Source: Sordaria brevicollis | Lineage: Eukaryota; Ascomycota; Sordariomycetes; Sordariales; Sordariaceae | Reading direction: 5' to 3' | DNA length: 64,000 nucleotides | Assembly: GCA_033439795.1 (NCBI GenBank) | Contig: JAUTDP010000013.1 | Location: forward strand, 186,001 to 250,000 | Shown: positions 53,319-63,713 of the stretch, piece by piece | Layout: each line of letters starts with the position of its first letter | Position numbering within the stretch: position 1 is the first letter of the stretch | Position numbers and translations under genes: made by a program | The notes under the pieces: model-generated | Databases searched by the model: none | Seen by the model: the letters and a program-made list of their open reading frames with translations, nothing else | Told to the model about the DNA's origin: nothing

Positions 53319-55900
53319 TTATCCGGGGTTATGACAACGATATTTGGTCTCGAGTCTCGAAAGATGTCTTCCAAGGTTCGGAGGAGATTTGTTGTTGATT
53401 GTTGGTCAGGGCTTTCTCCTGCTCGTTCAGGGACGAGGTTCAACGTTAAAAAATGATGTTCTTCTCCGAAGATAAGAGATGATGCACGTTCTTCAGAAAC
53501 TGGAGTCAACCGTGACCCAAAGAATGTGGCGGTATTTGGCCCTTAAAAGTGGAGGACAAAGCCAGGGAAAAGACAGGGATTCGTGATCAACGCAGAAAAA
53601 AAACTTTCTTTCGCAAAATCGCGGGGGAATGGGTGGCAGGGTGGTGGCTGGAAATCTGGAATGGCGGAGAGGCTTCCCGGTCTTCTCTGAATTCTTCCAT
53701 TTCACCATTTCGATGACAAACTGCTGCAAAGAAGAGAAAAGGGCGAACATCACTGGCACAGGCTCTATTATCCGGTCCCACTGGTGGTTTCTCTAGCGTG
53801 ATGACGGCTTCGCTGTGGCAGCCGTGGCTGTCGGAGAAGAAATCAGTTTCTCAGTTTCTCTCACGTAACAAGCAGGCTTGGCAACCATGCAGACGCAACC
53901 TTCAGTATCCCGGACCAAGGCCGCCCAGGCCAAAGTCTCCGAACATGTCCGGTCTGGATTTCGGAAAAATATGGGGCTTAAGCCGGGGGTCAGCGCCGGC
54001 GGTGTCCCCTTTGAATTCGCAAACATCGCTCCCGGAGCCCGGCGTCCACCGACCATTCCTCCGTCTTTGTCGATTTCTGACTTGAAACCGATTGTCGAGT
54101 TTGTAATGGTTTGGGTTCGTTATGCAAAACACACTTTTGGATCATGTGCCTATGAAGTCTGTGACGTCAATGCGCAAATCCATACTTATGCATCTCCAGC
54201 GTAAGTGATTCGCCATGGGGCTGTTTGGCATCTTGAAACATTCCGAGACATCTGTTTATGAAACGCTTCAAGTAGAGGCTTGAAGTTGCAAACATTTATA
54301 GCCGCCCGACTTGTTATGCGCTTTTGTCAGATTGCGCTGTGGGATCTGGTCTTGCTGGTGCAAAGTTCAAGCGGTTCTCTCGCACTAACACGATGCCCCG
54401 CTGCTTTCATAACTACTTGTCCATAGCCCTCATAACCGGGTATTGGATTCTTGCCCCGCAATATGCAATGCACATTCCGGCCAAGTGGAATGTCTTTTTG
54501 CGATTTTGCGCTCGCAGGCTTCGCGGGGAAACAACTCCGACCGCCGGATTCTTTTGCGCTCCTGATCTCAATTCAACCTTTGAAGATGTTGTTTCACTTT
54601 TCAGCGGTACTATTTGATGCTGGTTTGTTTGTTAGCGCGGTTCTCGCGACAAGGGTCTGCAAAAATATACCGAAAAACAACGAAGCAACCATATAAAAAA
54701 CTAAAAATTGAGTAGCGTGTAGAGACAGTCAAAGAGGCATTTGGTTGATACCAGTTTATTGCATGAAAATTGGTAGAAATCTGGCTGAGTTGCGGAGAGG
54801 GCGTTGTGAAGTCCCGTGCTAACGAACAAACCAGCAGAAGGGTGTAACACTGGACATCTCACTTTTTTCACATGCACTGTCGGAATGCAACGGCGGGCAG
54901 GCCACAGAACCCGACTGATGGCGGGTTGGCACCTGCACTGTCTCACTGTCTCAACTGTCGGCCAAAGACTTCCGGTTCCGTTCCGGCTGCTGTCCGACCT
55001 GGCCCAGAACAAAGAACGAACTATAAAACATCCATCCGTTCTCTCCCTTCTACACGACGGGTTTAGCGTCCTCACATGAGAATTCTCCCTTTGCAACTAA
55101 TCTCCGGCCATCAGCACAACAGCCGCCTAGTCAATGGCCATTCACTGGCCAGCAACGGCTTACGGCTCCGTCTCGCTAATTGTTGATGGGATTGCATGCG
55201 GCCGAACACTGTAGCATCGCAGTGTGCGTTTCAATGGCTTGTTGCGGGCTTGTTGGTGGTCATCAGGGTCGTCAACTTAAGCCAAAACAGTTTACCTACC
55301 CAACCTGGCGGTGCTACTAATTGCTTATTAGCTTTAGTGGCGAGGAAACGTAAATCTTGTTGGTTCCCTTCCCCTACCTGTTATGGTTCTTCTTTCTTTG
55401 TTCTGCTCATCCCGTACTGTATCAGACGTCTCTAACGTCCCCATGATGCTACGACTTAGGTGACAACTAGGAAATACCATCATGGATATACGGCACCCAG
55501 AAAAAGGAGGTTATTGTTGTTGGTTGTATTTCTTCTTGGGCTGTGCCCTTGTTCTCCTCGTTGCGACAGTGCAATGATGGCTGGTTCTCGCTGTTGTTGT
55601 AGGCAGCAGTTTAAATAAGCTGGTGATCATCTTATTTAAATGTCACTCTGGCCACCAAGTTCTACACACCCAACCACCAACCAGCCTACATCATTCTCTC
55701 ACTGGCGATCCTTGGATGTTTGCGGTTTTCATGTTTTAAAAAGTATGGGTGTATGAAAATCTCACACACACAGGACAAAGCCACACACACCCACCCGCCC
55801 GCGCACGGGAACAAGCTTTCCAACCAGGTTTCCGATCCTGCCAATCATCCCGTCCCATAAGAACCATACCCTTGGGATTATTTTTGTTCAAACAAAAAGG
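53319..55900. other. 2.6-kb divergent intergenic region
   Basis: Lies between the divergently transcribed MFS (minus) and KTR (plus) genes, so it carries both promoters. Contains a perfect CRE-type palindrome TGACGTCA at 54162-54169 and a perfect 10-bp inverted repeat TTTAAATAAG/CTTATTTAAA (55610-55619 and 55631-55640). Overlapping ORFs on both strands show no domains. No supported gene. Confidence 0.5.
54162..54169. promoter_or_regulatory. CRE-like site TGACGTCA
   Basis: Perfect 8-bp palindrome recognised by ATF/CREB-type bZIP factors in fungi. It lies 844 bp upstream of the MFS start and 1.7 kb upstream of the KTR start. A chance occurrence is quite possible. Confidence 0.25.
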
Positions 55901-57496
55901 ATGGGCTACCGCGGGCGCGCATCATCTTACTCTTATTCTTCTTCTTCCTCCTCTCACCACAACCAACTGCGGCAGCATGGCACCCTGCTTTTCCTCACAT
56001 TCGACCTGCTGGCCCGAGTAGGACACATCCTCATGTTGCAATTCCGACGACTTCGGCGCCACTCGGCGGGGCTCAACAGCCGGCGGCGCCTCAAGCAGCT
56101 CCTTCTCAAATTCGGCATCCCGCTGCTCGTTTTGTACCTCATCGACCTGCCGATCTACCTCTACAACACGCGCGTGGCACGCCCGGACCAGGATCTCGAC
56201 CAGCCGTTTTTGACAGGATGCCAGGACCCGGCCGCTTACGCCGCGCAGACGCCGCGCGAGAACGCCACGTTTGTTATGCTGGCGCGCAACAGCGAGGTGG
56301 ACGATGCGCGGTCGACGGTGGAGAATATCGAATGGCAGTTCAACCGCTGGTTTCACTACCCGATATTGTTTCTGAACGACGTCCCCTGGAGCGAGGAGTT
56401 CAAGGATGTGCTGCGCAGGACGGTCAGCAACGGGACCGAGGTGAGGTTTGAGGTCATCGAGAAGGGGAAATGGGGATTTCCGGAGGGGATGAGCGAGAGG
56501 GAAAAAGTCAAGGCCAAGTTGTCGATGAAGCAGCAGGGTGAGAGGGGAGTGGGATATGGTGGGATGGAGAGTTATCACCACATGTGCCGGTTTTATTCTG
56601 GGTATGCATCAATTTTTTTTTTTTTGTTTTTCCCCGGCTACGCGCGCGGTTCGTGTGGTCGTTTCATTGCTAACACGAAAACCAGCGAATTCTACAACCT
56701 CGAAGTCCTCAAACCCTACAAGTGGTATTGGCGCCTCGAGCCAAATGTTCGCTACGCTTGCTCCCTCACCTACGACCCCTTCGCCGAGATGGCCAAACGC
56801 GGCAAGGTCTACGGCTGGACGATTGCGCTCTGGGAGATGGGCAATACCTGTCCCTCGCTATTCAAGGCCACAAACGACTTCCGCGCCGAAAAGGGCCTTC
56901 CCCGGACGTCAAACTGGAACGCCTTGCTCAAAGTCATGTGGTGGCCCGCCCCTATCCGCTGGCTCCTCGGCTTCCTAAGCCCCGTAATCGAGGTGCACGA
57001 CAGCTCCGGCAGGAAATGGAACACGTGCCACTACTGGAGCAACTTTGAGATCGCCAGCCTGGACTTCTTTCGCGGGCGCGAGTACCAGGAGTACTTCCGG
57101 TATTTGGACAGCAAGGGCGGGTTCTACTCGGAGCGTTGGGGCGACGCGCCCGTTCACACGCTCGCCGTGCACATGCTGCTCCCGCCCGAGAAGATCCATC
57201 ATTTTTCGGATATCGGTTACGAGCACGACACGCTGTGGCAGTGCCCCGGGAACGCGCCGATGGACCGGCAACTGCTTGGGAACAAGGCGCTGGGGAACAC
57301 GGGCAAGATGACGCCGCCGTCGGAGGGCGGGACGGGGTGCCGGTGCAAGTGCAATGAGAATAGGAGGAGGAGGAACATTAATAGCGAGTGCACGGCCTAT
57401 CTGACGGCGCCGGTGGCGCATAATAGGGCGAGTTGGTGGCAGTGGTGGAATGGGCAACATCACTATGCTGTGAATAATCCGCATAATCCTAGGTGA
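55901..57496 (+). CDS. Alpha-1,2-mannosyltransferase, GT15/KTR family
   Basis: Two exons, 55901-56601 and 56686-57496, with an 84-nt intron (GTATGC, branch GCTAACAC, CAG), give 503 aa. Type II Golgi membrane protein: cytoplasmic N-terminus, anchor about residues 68-88 (FGIPLLVLYLIDLPIYLYN), then the luminal GT15 domain. Family blocks: ATFVMLARNSEVDDARSTV, EWQFNRWFHYPILFLND, YHHMCRFYSGEFYN across the splice, YWRLEPNVRYACSLTYDPF, NTCHYWSNFEIASLDFFRG (with the catalytic Glu region), and SERWGDAPVHTLAVHMLLP. It transfers mannose from GDP-mannose to O- and N-glycans. The intron length is a multiple of three and has no stop, so an unspliced form would still be translatable. An alternative start at Met 45 (56033) is possible. 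Confidence 0.94.
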   Translation: MGYRGRASSYSYSSSSSSHHNQLRQHGTLLFLTFDLLARVGHILMLQFRRLRRHSAGLNSRRRLKQLLLKFGIPLLVLYLIDLPIYLYNTRVARPDQDLDQPFLTGCQDPAAYAAQTPRENATFVMLARNSEVDDARSTVENIEWQFNRWFHYPILFLNDVPWSEEFKDVLRRTVSNGTEVRFEVIEKGKWGFPEGMSEREKVKAKLSMKQQGERGVGYGGMESYHHMCRFYSGYASIFFFLFFPGYARGSCGRFIANTKTSEFYNLEVLKPYKWYWRLEPNVRYACSLTYDPFAEMAKRGKVYGWTIALWEMGNTCPSLFKATNDFRAEKGLPRTSNWNALLKVMWWPAPIRWLLGFLSPVIEVHDSSGRKWNTCHYWSNFEIASLDFFRGREYQEYFRYLDSKGGFYSERWGDAPVHTLAVHMLLPPEKIHHFSDIGYEHDTLWQCPGNAPMDRQLLGNKALGNTGKMTPPSEGGTGCRCKCNENRRRRNINSECTAYLTAPVAHNRASWWQWWNGQHHYAVNNPHNPR

Positions 57497-57706: not shown

Positions 57707-57795
57707 GCGGGTTTAGCTCAGTTGGGAGAGCGTCAGACTGAAGTCCACTTCACTCATAAATCTGAAGGTCGTGTGTTCGATCCACACAAACCGCA
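57707..57795 (+). tRNA. tRNA-Phe (GAA), intron-containing
   Basis: 89 nt with a full cloverleaf: acceptor GCGGGTT/AACCCGC with a pairing position 73 A, A-box TAGCTCAGTTGGGAGAGC, B-box GTTCGATCC, anticodon GAA at 57740-57742. A 16-nt intron (57744-57759) sits one base 3' of the anticodon, at the canonical position. The mature form of 73 nt matches the usual eukaryotic tRNA-Phe. Confidence 0.97.
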
Positions 57796-58256: not shown

Positions 58257-58977
58257 ATGCACCTCCTCACCATTATCCTCTCCTTCCTCCTCCTCCCTTT
58301 TACCACCGCCCAAGCAAGTGCATCCACCGCCTTCTGCCCCTGGTGCCTCACAACAATCCCCGACAGCATCGCCCAAAACCCCGAATTCCTCTACTCCTCC
58401 TACTGCCACGCCTTCGTTCACCAGCCCATCCTTGCCTCGGACGTCTCGACACAAAACAAAAAGACGACGGCAGTCCACGTCGCCATAATGAACAACAACA
58501 TGACTGAGCTCCTTTCCTATGGCCGGATGGTCTACGATGGTACCAGCGTCGCTTCGGTGGACTTGCCGACTAAACCGACGAGGTGTGTACCGGGCGTGGC
58601 GACGGTTAGGTGGTTTAAGAAGGAGGAGATGATGGGCGGGGAGGGTGGGACGTTAAACCCGTGAGTGTTTCCTGCTGGTCATTGTCTTTCCCCATTCCCT
58701 GAAGTGACTACTATCTGGGATGTAACTTGTATACTATACATTGAGTTCGGACTAACGATGAATGACACGAAACAGTCCCGAGTTCATGTACTCCGTTCAA
58801 TCGGAACGAAACTATAGCCCTCCGCAGATAGTGTCTGCGCAATACCCGAATGGGTGGGCAGTGGATAATGCGAGGAAGGGCGTGGCGCCGGATGGGAAGT
58901 ATGTGGTCTGGAGGAGACCGTTTAGTTGTTGTATTAGCGCTAAGATGGATGGGAAGGGGGGTGAGGATTTTCCGTGA
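58257..58977 (+). CDS. Secreted FCPWC-family protein A (uncharacterised)
   Basis: Two exons, 58257-58660 and 58776-58977, with a 115-nt phase-2 intron (GTGAGT, branch GACTAAC, CAG), give 201 aa. The signal peptide MHLLTIILSFLLLPFTTAQA is followed by the motif FCPWCLTTIP, then C.AFVHQPI, VAIMNNNMTELLSYGR, a variable loop, GVATVRWFKK, and after the splice APDGKYVVWRRPFSCC. The start has a good context (ACAACAATG). It is a paralogue of the gene 500 bp downstream, which has the same motifs, the same intron phase and the same intron length. The CPWC pair could be a redox or metal site, or simply a disulfide. No family is known to me. Confidence 0.82.
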
Positions 58978-59479
58978 TGGTGTGGAACATAGATGGCCCG
59001 GTAGGGGTGGACGCACTGGATGGGTGGCTTGCTGGTGAGGTGAGATGAATACCCGCAGTTGGAAGTGATTCAGCACGGCAGCATAGATGGTTGTGTTATT
59101 ATCAGCTCCCTTCCAAACTTGCTTGTCTTAGGAGTCATTTGGTCAGAGTGAACTGGATGTTTGGCTTTGTCTGATGTGGCTTGGTGTAGACTAGGGCAGA
59201 ACTCCTGGGACAAAGATCTTTGTATGTGTGTGTTGAAGATGGTCAAAGAGACGACAGGCTCGACTTATCGAATGAATGACCTGCGATTAAGTTTCATTTG
59301 GAAGGTCCGAGTGAGCGATACAAACGTCCCAGTTCCTCTCACTTTGCCCTTGAAGGCTTGAACGCATTTTTCCACATCTCGACAATCGCTCTTTCCTCCA
59401 GCACCAGGCACCTCAAGTTCAACCAACTGCATTCGCTCTTTCCCAGTATACTACTATACTAGAAACACTCGTTTCAAAG
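58978..59479. other. Intergenic between the two FCPWC genes
   Basis: 502 bp carrying the promoter and leader of gene B. Short ORFs on both strands have no support. Confidence 0.45.
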
Positions 59480-60233
59480 ATGCTACCATCACTCCTTCCC
59501 TCTTCGTTCCTCCTCCTCATTTCCACCCTCACCACTCACGCCTCCCCAGTCCGCCCCTTCTCCGAGTCCGACAACGCCCCTTCCCCAGCCAACTCCTCCC
59601 TCCCCCTAAACACCGCCAGAGCGACAGAAACAGACTGGAACTCCTGGTCCAACCTCTCCGAACGTTTCTGCCCCTGGTGCGAAGCCGGCATCACCTCCTC
59701 CTCCAACAACGACGACGCTCCCAGCCCCGAAGAGAAAGTATGCAGGGTAGTTGTTCACCAACCGATGGCGTCAACCGCCGCTAGCACCCCACTTAATCGG
59801 CAGTTTATTGACGTTGCTATTTTGAACTCCAAATATGAGGAGCTGTTGTCTTACAGAAGAACGGGGTGGGGTCAGCAGGAGGATGTATGGACTTCGGTTC
59901 CGGGGGTTGGGGAGAAGATGGGGGTGGCAACGGTGTTTGTGGGGGAGAGGGGGGTTGAGGTTCCGTAAGTCTTTATTTAATTTTCTTCTTATTTTGCTGG
60001 GGATCTAGGGATTAGTTGGTGGTTCTGGTGTTGTTATTTGTTGAGTGATTTGGTGTGCTGACTTGTGGTGTCCATCTAGACCAAAGATTTTGTGGCAGAC
60101 TGACGGGAAACTCTCGGTGACGATTCTTCCGCTGGCGCCGAGCACGGAAGGGTCAAAGTGGAAGGTTGTGAAAGACGTTGCGCCAAAGAAGAGCTATCTT
60201 GTCTTTCATACGTGGTTCTTTTGTGGGAATTAG
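59480..60233 (+). CDS. Secreted FCPWC-family protein B (uncharacterised)
   Basis: Two exons, 59480-59964 and 60080-60233, with a 115-nt phase-2 intron (GTAAGT, branch GCTGAC, TAG), give 212 aa. A signal peptide (LLPSSFLLLISTLTTHAS) is followed by a Ser/Pro-rich linker that may be a pro-region, then ERFCPWCEAGI, CRVVVHQPM, DVAILNSKYEELLSYRR, GVATVFVGERG and, in exon 2, DVAPKKSYLVFHTWFFCGN at the C-terminus. It shares with gene A the order and spacing of FCPWC, VHQP, VAI.N...ELLSY.R, GVATV and VAP.K.Y.V. The longer N-terminal linker is the main difference. Orientation, spacing and intron identity indicate tandem duplication followed by strong divergence. Function unknown. Confidence 0.82.
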
Positions 60234-60614: not shown

Positions 60615-62030
60615 CTACTCGAGACGATCACTCTCCTCGAAGGCCTCCAGGTTTGGCATTACATACTCGTCAACCTCAAGCTCCATTGGGGGGGTGTTCT
60701 CATCAGGGGCGTCGGGAATGGGATACTCTGCGGCTTCAGACTTCCATAGAGGCTCATTGTCAGCAGGGGTGGGAGGCATGGAATGCTCCTCGTCTCCAGA
60801 CTCAGACTGCTTGGTGGGACTGTTGTTCTCGTTTCGCTGTTCGCTTGGTTCGTCCGCGGTAACATCAGGAACAACAACAATGGGCTCTCCCTTTGCTTCG
60901 CTGATCCGACGCTTGAGTTCCTGAAGGTTCTCCTCGGCGACAGTCTGTCTTGCTTCGGCAGCCCGAGCGAGAGCGTCAATCCTGTCCATAATCAGCTGCT
61001 GGCGAACAAAGTTTGCCTCATTGAGAGCATCAACCTTGCTCATAACCTGGGTGAGCGTGGCTTCGATCTGGGTAGCAAATTGTGCGGTAGCATTGTCGCG
61101 AGCAAGTTGGCGTCTCAAAACGGCGCTCTGTTCTTCGGAACGCCCAAGCTTTTGCTGTGTCACAGCTAATCTGCCACTCAGCGAAGCATTTGTAAGGGAC
61201 AACATCTCTGCATGTGCTCTAGCAGATGCCATCTCCTTCTCATACACCTTTAGCTGCTCTTCCGCGGCGGTCAGCGCGTCTCTGAGTGGTTCCCGGCGAC
61301 GGCTTCTCTCTTCGAGTTCCAATTCGAGATTAGAACACGTATGCTGGAAGAATTCTCTCCCGGATTCGGCCCTCTGAAACTGCTCTTCGGCAAACTTCAG
61401 ATCTTCCTTGACCTCTTCAAGCTCTTTCTCAAGAGCAGCCCGTCCACGTTCCGCTAAGATTTGCTTCGCCCTGGCCTCTTCCATCCCGTCCCTGATAATT
61501 TTCGCCTCCTTCCTAAGATAAGCCCGGTCAGACTGAAATGAGGCCCGCTCTTCTTCGGTCTTCTTGAGCTGATCCTCAGTCTGTTCAAGCTTCCGTCTGA
61601 CAAATGTCACCTCTTGCTCAAGAGCAGCCCGCTCAGATTTCCAACCGGCTAGCTCCATCTTGGTCTCTTCGAGCCGAAGCTCATTGTGTTCAAGCTCATC
61701 TTGCATCGCGTCGACCTCAGTCATCATCCTCATAACTCCACCCCGGGCCACGGTGAGCTCATCTCTTGTCTTTTTGAGCTCATTCATCACCTTCTTGAGC
61801 TTCTTCTTCGTCTCAACGAGCTCTTGCTCAATCGCATGAAAGTCGGAAGCTCCTTCCATGTGGTCTTGCTCGGCGCCAGAGGACGGACCGCCTTCGGGGG
61901 AGAGACTTTTGGGGATAAGAGGCTGGAATTGGCTGGTCATAGAATGGGACAGGGGAGGTGTATTAGGCGGTTGGTTGCTCGTGGAGCCCGCTTCGCCGGA
62001 GGCCTCGTTGGGCTGTTGATTGACTGACAT
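60615..62030 (-). CDS. Long coiled-coil protein, unknown function
   Basis: One coding exon of 471 aa from the ATG at 62030 (MSVNQQPNEASGEAGSTSNQ). An open frame upstream to 62093 is explained by a 5' leader intron (62037-62097: GTAAGT, branch GCTAAC, CAG), so I chose the downstream ATG. A disordered N-terminus of about 65 residues is followed by about 310 residues of heptad-rich coiled coil (for example AIEQELVETKKKLKKVMNEL, LKKTEEERASFQSDRAYLR and RGRAALEKELEEVKEDLKFA), then an acidic Pro-rich tail. No enzymatic motif. Such proteins are usually structural or scaffolds of cytoskeleton or septa. Another coiled-coil gene lies on the same strand to the right. Confidence 0.85.
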   Translation of the reverse strand: MSVNQQPNEASGEAGSTSNQPPNTPPLSHSMTSQFQPLIPKSLSPEGGPSSGAEQDHMEGASDFHAIEQELVETKKKLKKVMNELKKTRDELTVARGGVMRMMTEVDAMQDELEHNELRLEETKMELAGWKSERAALEQEVTFVRRKLEQTEDQLKKTEEERASFQSDRAYLRKEAKIIRDGMEEARAKQILAERGRAALEKELEEVKEDLKFAEEQFQRAESGREFFQHTCSNLELELEERSRRREPLRDALTAAEEQLKVYEKEMASARAHAEMLSLTNASLSGRLAVTQQKLGRSEEQSAVLRRQLARDNATAQFATQIEATLTQVMSKVDALNEANFVRQQLIMDRIDALARAAEARQTVAEENLQELKRRISEAKGEPIVVVPDVTADEPSEQRNENNSPTKQSESGDEEHSMPPTPADNEPLWKSEAAEYPIPDAPDENTPPMELEVDEYVMPNLEAFEESDRLE

Positions 62031-62097
62031 TGTTGTCTGAGACTTGCGAAAGTTAGCTTGTGCTAGAACTAACAAAGGAGTGCAACAAGGCACTTAC

Positions 62098-62794: not shown

Positions 62795-62889
62795 GGCTCG
62801 TTGGTGTAAATGGTAACATTCCTGGCGAGGTAAATCCCCGTCTGCATGCGTGCCGCAGGAAGACAACGGTTCGAGCCCGTTACGGGCCA
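62795..62889 (+). tRNA. tRNA gene with intron, anticodon uncertain
   Basis: The acceptor stem GGCTCGT/ACGGGCC pairs over 7 bp with one wobble, the D-arm GTGT..ACAT pairs over 4 bp, and the T-arm AACGG-TTCGAGC-CCGTT pairs perfectly, with A at position 73 and a TTTTT terminator at 62896-62900. Total 95 nt implies an intron of about 22 nt. The anticodon stem TTCCTG/CAGGAA is clear, but the region between does not show a standard T33 next to the stem, so the anticodon cannot be read safely. Acceptor and D-arm resemble tRNA-Pro and tRNA-Arg types. The stem may be re-paired with the intron, or the gene may be a variant. Confidence 0.68.
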
Positions 62890-63713
62890 CACCCGCTTTT
62901 TCTTTTCATCCACCTACTTACTTTTTGCCAATCAAGAGAACCACCATTGCACCAATTGCACCACATCGCTCACTCATTCACTCACACAATCAGTACATAC
63001 ATAGCATGCTGTTTCTTGCTTATGAACCAGCTGTTCCTTCACGCAACACACACGAAGCTTACGTGTCATTTAAACTCCTTTCAGCAGTGCGAAGCAGAAG
63101 TCGATATCTCCCCATAGCGGTCAAAAGCGGTTTCAAAAGATGGTCACGGATATGGCCCTCATAGACTGGTGTACAAGACGATGATTTATCTCAGAATGGA
63201 ACAAAGTGAATTTTGCGGCGATTTCAGGATTCCCAGTGCGGCCCTATATGTGGTACCAAAGACGACGTGTCAAAAGCAGGAAGGGTAAAGGATCTAGAAA
63301 ACGCTCTGATTTGTATTTTCTTCCATCTAAGGGAGTGATTGGTGGTCCTTGAGGCCAGCTTTCTAGTATGATCCGTCTCCCCTCGAGCTTTATGGTTCGT
63401 ATCTGCTAGCACCCTAGAACCGTTTTCGGATCGGAGTGTAAGCTTGCACCGGATATCATAACTTGACACTCAGATCTTCAGGATTATTTTTTCGAACTCC
63501 CTCCGCACGCTATGGATTACATTTCGAGCACCATCTCAACAGGCATTAACTTCACGGTTGAAGAGGTTGAGCAAAACCGGACCACTGATGAGGTGTCTGT
63601 ATTTGTTAGACGACAAGGTTAGCAACTGCAGATGCTGGTATAACAGGTAAAAAGCCAGATAAGAGTGATGACAAACCTCTTGTGTGGGCAGGGAGAGGCG
63701 ATTTTACTCCGGC
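62890..63713. other. Intergenic, no gene seen
   Basis: 824 bp from the tRNA terminator to the end of the last gene. Overlapping short ORFs (62850-63164 plus, 63224-63469 minus) have no motif. Confidence 0.45.

Follow-up and report, generated by a model that had tools for sequence, protein, structure and literature searches.

PMC10684091 describes 670 lineage-specific genes in Neurospora crassa, with a mean length of about 192 amino acids (aa) and few to no known domains. More than a quarter of these genes respond to perturbation of the mating locus. Out of 367 knockouts that were available, three arrested protoperithecia; two of the three genes are Neurospora-specific, and the third is specific to Neurospora and Sordaria. 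Here we describe two adjacent genes of Sordaria brevicollis, gene 1 (58257-58977) and gene 2 (59480-60233), which lie on the plus strand of a stretch of 64,000 nucleotides (nt) of contig JAUTDP010000013.1 (positions 186,001 to 250,000), hereafter called the window. We consider it probable, with some reservation, that they form a lineage-restricted tandem pair, present in Neurospora and near relatives, and that they encode small secreted, disulfide-bonded proteins with a beta-rich domain. Like the Neurospora lineage-specific genes, the pair is short, domain-free, intron-bearing and apparently lineage-restricted. However, the former set was defined in N. crassa, and most of its near-telomere members cluster with HET-domain genes; moreover, the main text of PMC10684091 uses none of the terms secreted, signal peptide, cysteine and tetraspora. 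These genes are a plausible setting for the family described here, not evidence on it.

Both genes are complete and are separated by 502 nt; their limits were read from the sequence and checked by script. Gene 1 starts with the ATG at 58257 and ends with TGA. Its first exon (58257-58660) encodes a signal-peptide-like leader, FCPWC, C50 followed by FVHQP, the segment HVAIMNNNMTELLSY, which has an N-x-T sequon inside, and C110-VPGVATV. The second exon (58776-58977) encodes GVAPDGKYVVW..FSCC, the two adjacent cysteines being followed by a tail of 14 residues. Outside the leader, gene 1 therefore has six cysteines (27, 30, 50, 110 and the CC of exon 2). Gene 2 starts with the ATG at 59480 and ends with TAG. 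The product of its first exon (59480-59964) has a signal-peptide-like leader, a linker with N-glycosylation sequons, FCPWC, C88 with VVHQP, VAILN..EELLSY and GVATV, and that of the second exon (60080-60233) reads PKILWQTDGKL... VAPKKSYLVFHTWFFCGN. Four cysteines lie outside the leader, at 64, 67 and 88 and, in exon 2, a single further one. Both leaders are hydrophobic by eye.

The blocks common to the two genes are FCPWC, a cysteine with VHQP, VAI.N...LLSY, GVATV and, at the C-terminus, VAP..Y.V...C. An earlier note on this DNA had named such blocks in two adjacent genes of the same strand; they are present, and the likeness is beyond chance. The exon-1 products without their leaders align with a score of 107, compared to a maximum of 61 in 2000 shuffles; the exon-2 products score 37, and 8 of 2000 shuffles do as well. 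A third copy of the family was sought in the genome and not found. The same genome has FCPWC in a further frame, of 605 aa, which looks unrelated and has many cysteines and histidines (L005 1138-2955, minus strand; zinc-finger-like by eye). Thus the pentapeptide alone names no family, and the weight rests on the full set of blocks.

Searches of about 5.8 billion proteins, with single sequences and with profiles, found six relatives (P0001 to P0006). The first exon of gene 1 is matched by P0001, P0006 and the first half of P0005 (A type), that of gene 2 by P0002, P0003, P0004 and the second half of P0005 (B type). The best E-values are 1.2e-37 with a single sequence and 2.6e-100 with a profile; the profile E-values of the six relatives range from 2.2e-23 to 2.6e-100, four of the six being part of the query profile. 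Only P0002 and P0005 have a named organism, Neurospora in both cases; no organism is given for the remaining four. No N. crassa member of the family is among the matches. The alignment of seven sequences has 16 invariant columns, and the invariant blocks are FCPWC, C..VHQP, AI.N and LS..R. The earlier note called the family apparently undescribed. The searches made gave it neither a name nor a function, although some of its members are already deposited as Neurospora hypothetical proteins.

P0005 is a hypothetical protein of 329 aa from Neurospora tetraspora (B0H65DRAFT_557159). Its residues 1-133 match exon 1 of gene 1 and are followed by PTFDYSV, which corresponds to PEFMYSV, where exon 2 of gene 1 begins in the window. 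The second half matches exon 1 of gene 2, and the last 50 residues match exon 2 of gene 2 with 40 identities (80%). The VAP..Y.V.....C block of gene 1 exon 2 is common to gene 2 and P0005. P0005 thus resembles the pair in that the A type precedes the B type and the splice places fall at the same residues; it differs in being annotated as one protein, which contains little of gene 1 exon 2 and no leader for gene 2. The fusion is probably a gene model that merged two genes, because the close relative P0002 has its own start and leader. P0002 is a hypothetical protein of 170 aa from Neurospora sp. IMI 360204 (N0V85_008954). Like gene 2, it has a leader and a B-type exon 1, and 62 of the 98 residues of the core are the same in both, but the record stops where the 5' splice site lies and exon 2 is absent from it. 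Both Neurospora records look misannotated, one apparently fused and the other apparently truncated at an intron.

Each gene has one intron of 115 nt, in phase 2 and at the same place: 58661-58775 in gene 1 (GTGAGT..CTAAC..CAG) and 59965-60079 in gene 2 (GTAAGT..CTGAC..TAG). The earlier note was right on these points, but it put the introns directly after GVATV and a proline codon. They actually lie inside the proline codon, which is split as CC|T in gene 1 and CC|A in gene 2, with 17 and 9 whole residues, respectively, between GVATV and the intron. A phase-2 intron that splits a proline codon, downstream of GVATV and before the C-terminal segment, is found in both window genes, and P0005, which was annotated independently, reads across both junctions: it continues with PTFDYSV at the first and reads ...LP|PKILWQ at the second. 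The equal position and phase are best explained by common descent. The equal length may be a coincidence. When the two introns are compared ungapped, 46 of 115 positions are equal, and 237 of 1000 shuffles align equally well; since the two introns resemble each other no more than chance would allow, their common length carries little weight. In-frame acceptors which lead to the same stop within about 260 nt downstream number six in gene 1, one of them giving an intron shorter than 115 nt (85 nt), and three in gene 2, where 115 nt is the shortest. The 115-nt acceptors were chosen on the basis of the splice motifs and of P0005. Five relatives consist of exon 1 only; four of them (P0001, P0002, P0003 and P0006) end in proline at the position where the 5' splice site of the window reads CCG-TAA or CCG-TGA, and P0004 ends earlier.

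It could be argued that there is no intron, each protein stopping at the proline before the stop at the 5' splice site, and that the downstream likeness arose by chance. The reading frame does stop there, and P0002 was deposited with that end. However, this view leaves the 80% identity between gene 2 exon 2 and the last residues of P0005 to chance, as well as a likeness between the exon-2 products that so few shuffles reach, and both genes have donor, branch-point-like and acceptor motifs. We regard it as extremely improbable, and retain the spliced structure.

A tree of nine exon-1 cores (four of A type and five of B type, the sequence of P0004 being shortened) separates the two types with 100% ultrafast bootstrap, while support within the groups is mostly low (46 to 87%). 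As both types are present in N. tetraspora, the duplication predates the split between this species and S. brevicollis; since P0005 has the pair in order and reads across both junctions, the pair and its introns also predate that split. These sequence comparisons support the earlier note in its view of an old tandem duplication within a small family, whose members have signal-peptide-like leaders. The order of the pair is kept in a second species.

The core of gene 1 is identical to its N. tetraspora counterpart at 61 of 108 positions (56%), that of gene 2 at 61 of 97 (63%). S. brevicollis stands near Neurospora: its mL40 protein aligns over 199 residues with a chain in 6ywe (E 1.6e-107), which we take to be the N. 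crassa mitoribosome. By eye, the core identities of genes 1 and 2 are well below that of mL40. The sequences thus evolve fast while the blocks are constrained, which falls short of proof of positive selection and does not show the diversifying change that the earlier note had suggested. An N-x-T sequon is present in the VAI.N block of all four A-type sequences and of none of the five B-type sequences, and all five B-type sequences have sequons upstream of FCPWC.

Small, cysteine-containing, leader-bearing and fast-evolving paralogues could also be secreted inhibitors or antimicrobials used against competing microbes, each copy having another target. This is unlikely in our view: no antimicrobial or inhibitor family was found above cut-off or chance level in Pfam or among PDB sequences, the CarbpepA_inh line obtained for P0005 is weak (E 0.33, 11.2 bits for a cut-off of 25) and was taken as noise, and there are only two copies instead of an expanded array.

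The earlier note knew of no named family with this motif, and searches of Pfam, NCBIfam and PDB sequences yielded nothing but lines under the cut-off or no better than chance. The best Pfam line is DUF6980 for gene 1, with an E-value of 0.0027 over 21 residues around FCPWC and a score of 18.3 bits compared to a cut-off of 27; it was obtained for one of the seven members of the alignment, and P0005 gives E 0.16. The FCPWC motif did not occur in the literature searched. The AlphaFold models are poor, with a mean predicted local distance difference test score (pLDDT) of 41 and 49, probably because of a lack of sequence depth; both have strands predicted at the conserved blocks, with low confidence. 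MAX-type effectors are six-stranded beta sandwiches. That the pair encodes plant-associated effector-like proteins is, in our view, very unlikely.

FCPWC might instead be the active site or the metal-binding site of a CxxC redox or metal-binding protein. The motif is invariant in the alignment of seven sequences, it recurs in the cysteine- and histidine-rich 605-aa frame, and zinc-ribbon-like Pfam lines were obtained, below cut-off, along with that of DUF6980. On the other hand, Pfam gave no thioredoxin match, and no helix of at least four residues follows CPWC in either of the (poor) AlphaFold models. The N-termini are leader-like, and the even number of cysteines (4 or 6) is that expected for disulfides. 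A CxxC function of this kind seems quite unlikely.

We keep to secreted, disulfide-bonded proteins, whose secretion, disulfide pairing and beta fold we infer for both genes. An N-terminal signal peptide would take each protein into the endoplasmic reticulum. There, the cysteines of FCPWC, the one before VHQP and the C-terminal one would pair as disulfides, two in gene 2 and probably three in gene 1, by means of its two extra cysteines; the core of the gene 1 product would also have a conserved N-glycan site. The two exons together would form a beta-rich domain, and the proteins would be released to the wall or the medium. Our guess is that the proteins have a binding role, not an enzymatic one, when the fungus meets other hyphae or during the sexual phase. 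A bolder version holds that the pair has a new, Sordariaceae-specific secreted fold and that the six-cysteine, glycosylated A protein and the four-cysteine B protein, which stay adjacent across species, cooperate, for instance in recognition, be it hyphal or sexual; we see this as a long shot.

Several observations weigh against the proposed nature of the pair. Nothing was found that ties the pair to mating or to non-self recognition, and fold searches with the poor AlphaFold models matched nothing above background. By eye, the FCPWC of the 605-aa frame looks like a metal-binding half-site, and the motif may have the same use in the proteins of the pair. The S. brevicollis genome has at least 124 HET-domain matches, some of which are pieces of one gene, and none of these is on the contig of the pair, unlike the situation of many N. 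crassa lineage-specific genes. In any case, an unnamed family gains a clear motif and a fixed gene structure. Should the pair have a part in recognition or reproduction, it would offer a target of two genes, open to deletion in tractable fungi; if not, it simply belongs with several hundred lineage-restricted genes.

The upstream neighbour of the pair (55757-57496) encodes a Glyco_transf_15 alpha-1,2-mannosyltransferase (Pfam, 280 bits), and the downstream neighbour (60615-62093, minus strand) is a coiled-coil-like open frame of 492 aa with no Pfam match above cut-off. An intron-containing transfer RNA (tRNA) gene lies at 57707-57795 (Rfam RF00005, 55.4 bits); it is apparently tRNA-Phe(GAA) by eye. 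ARAGORN does not list it and instead places a tRNA-Phe at 62795-62890, its anticodon being AAA, which is unsupported by Rfam. Positions 1-25000 of the window form a very AT-rich block, with a GC content of 17-30% per 2 kb, beside sequence of 48-55% GC. Over positions 1-24000, the TpA/ApT ratio is 1.11 and the (CpA+TpG)/(ApC+GpT) ratio is 0.42, as expected of repeat-induced point mutation.
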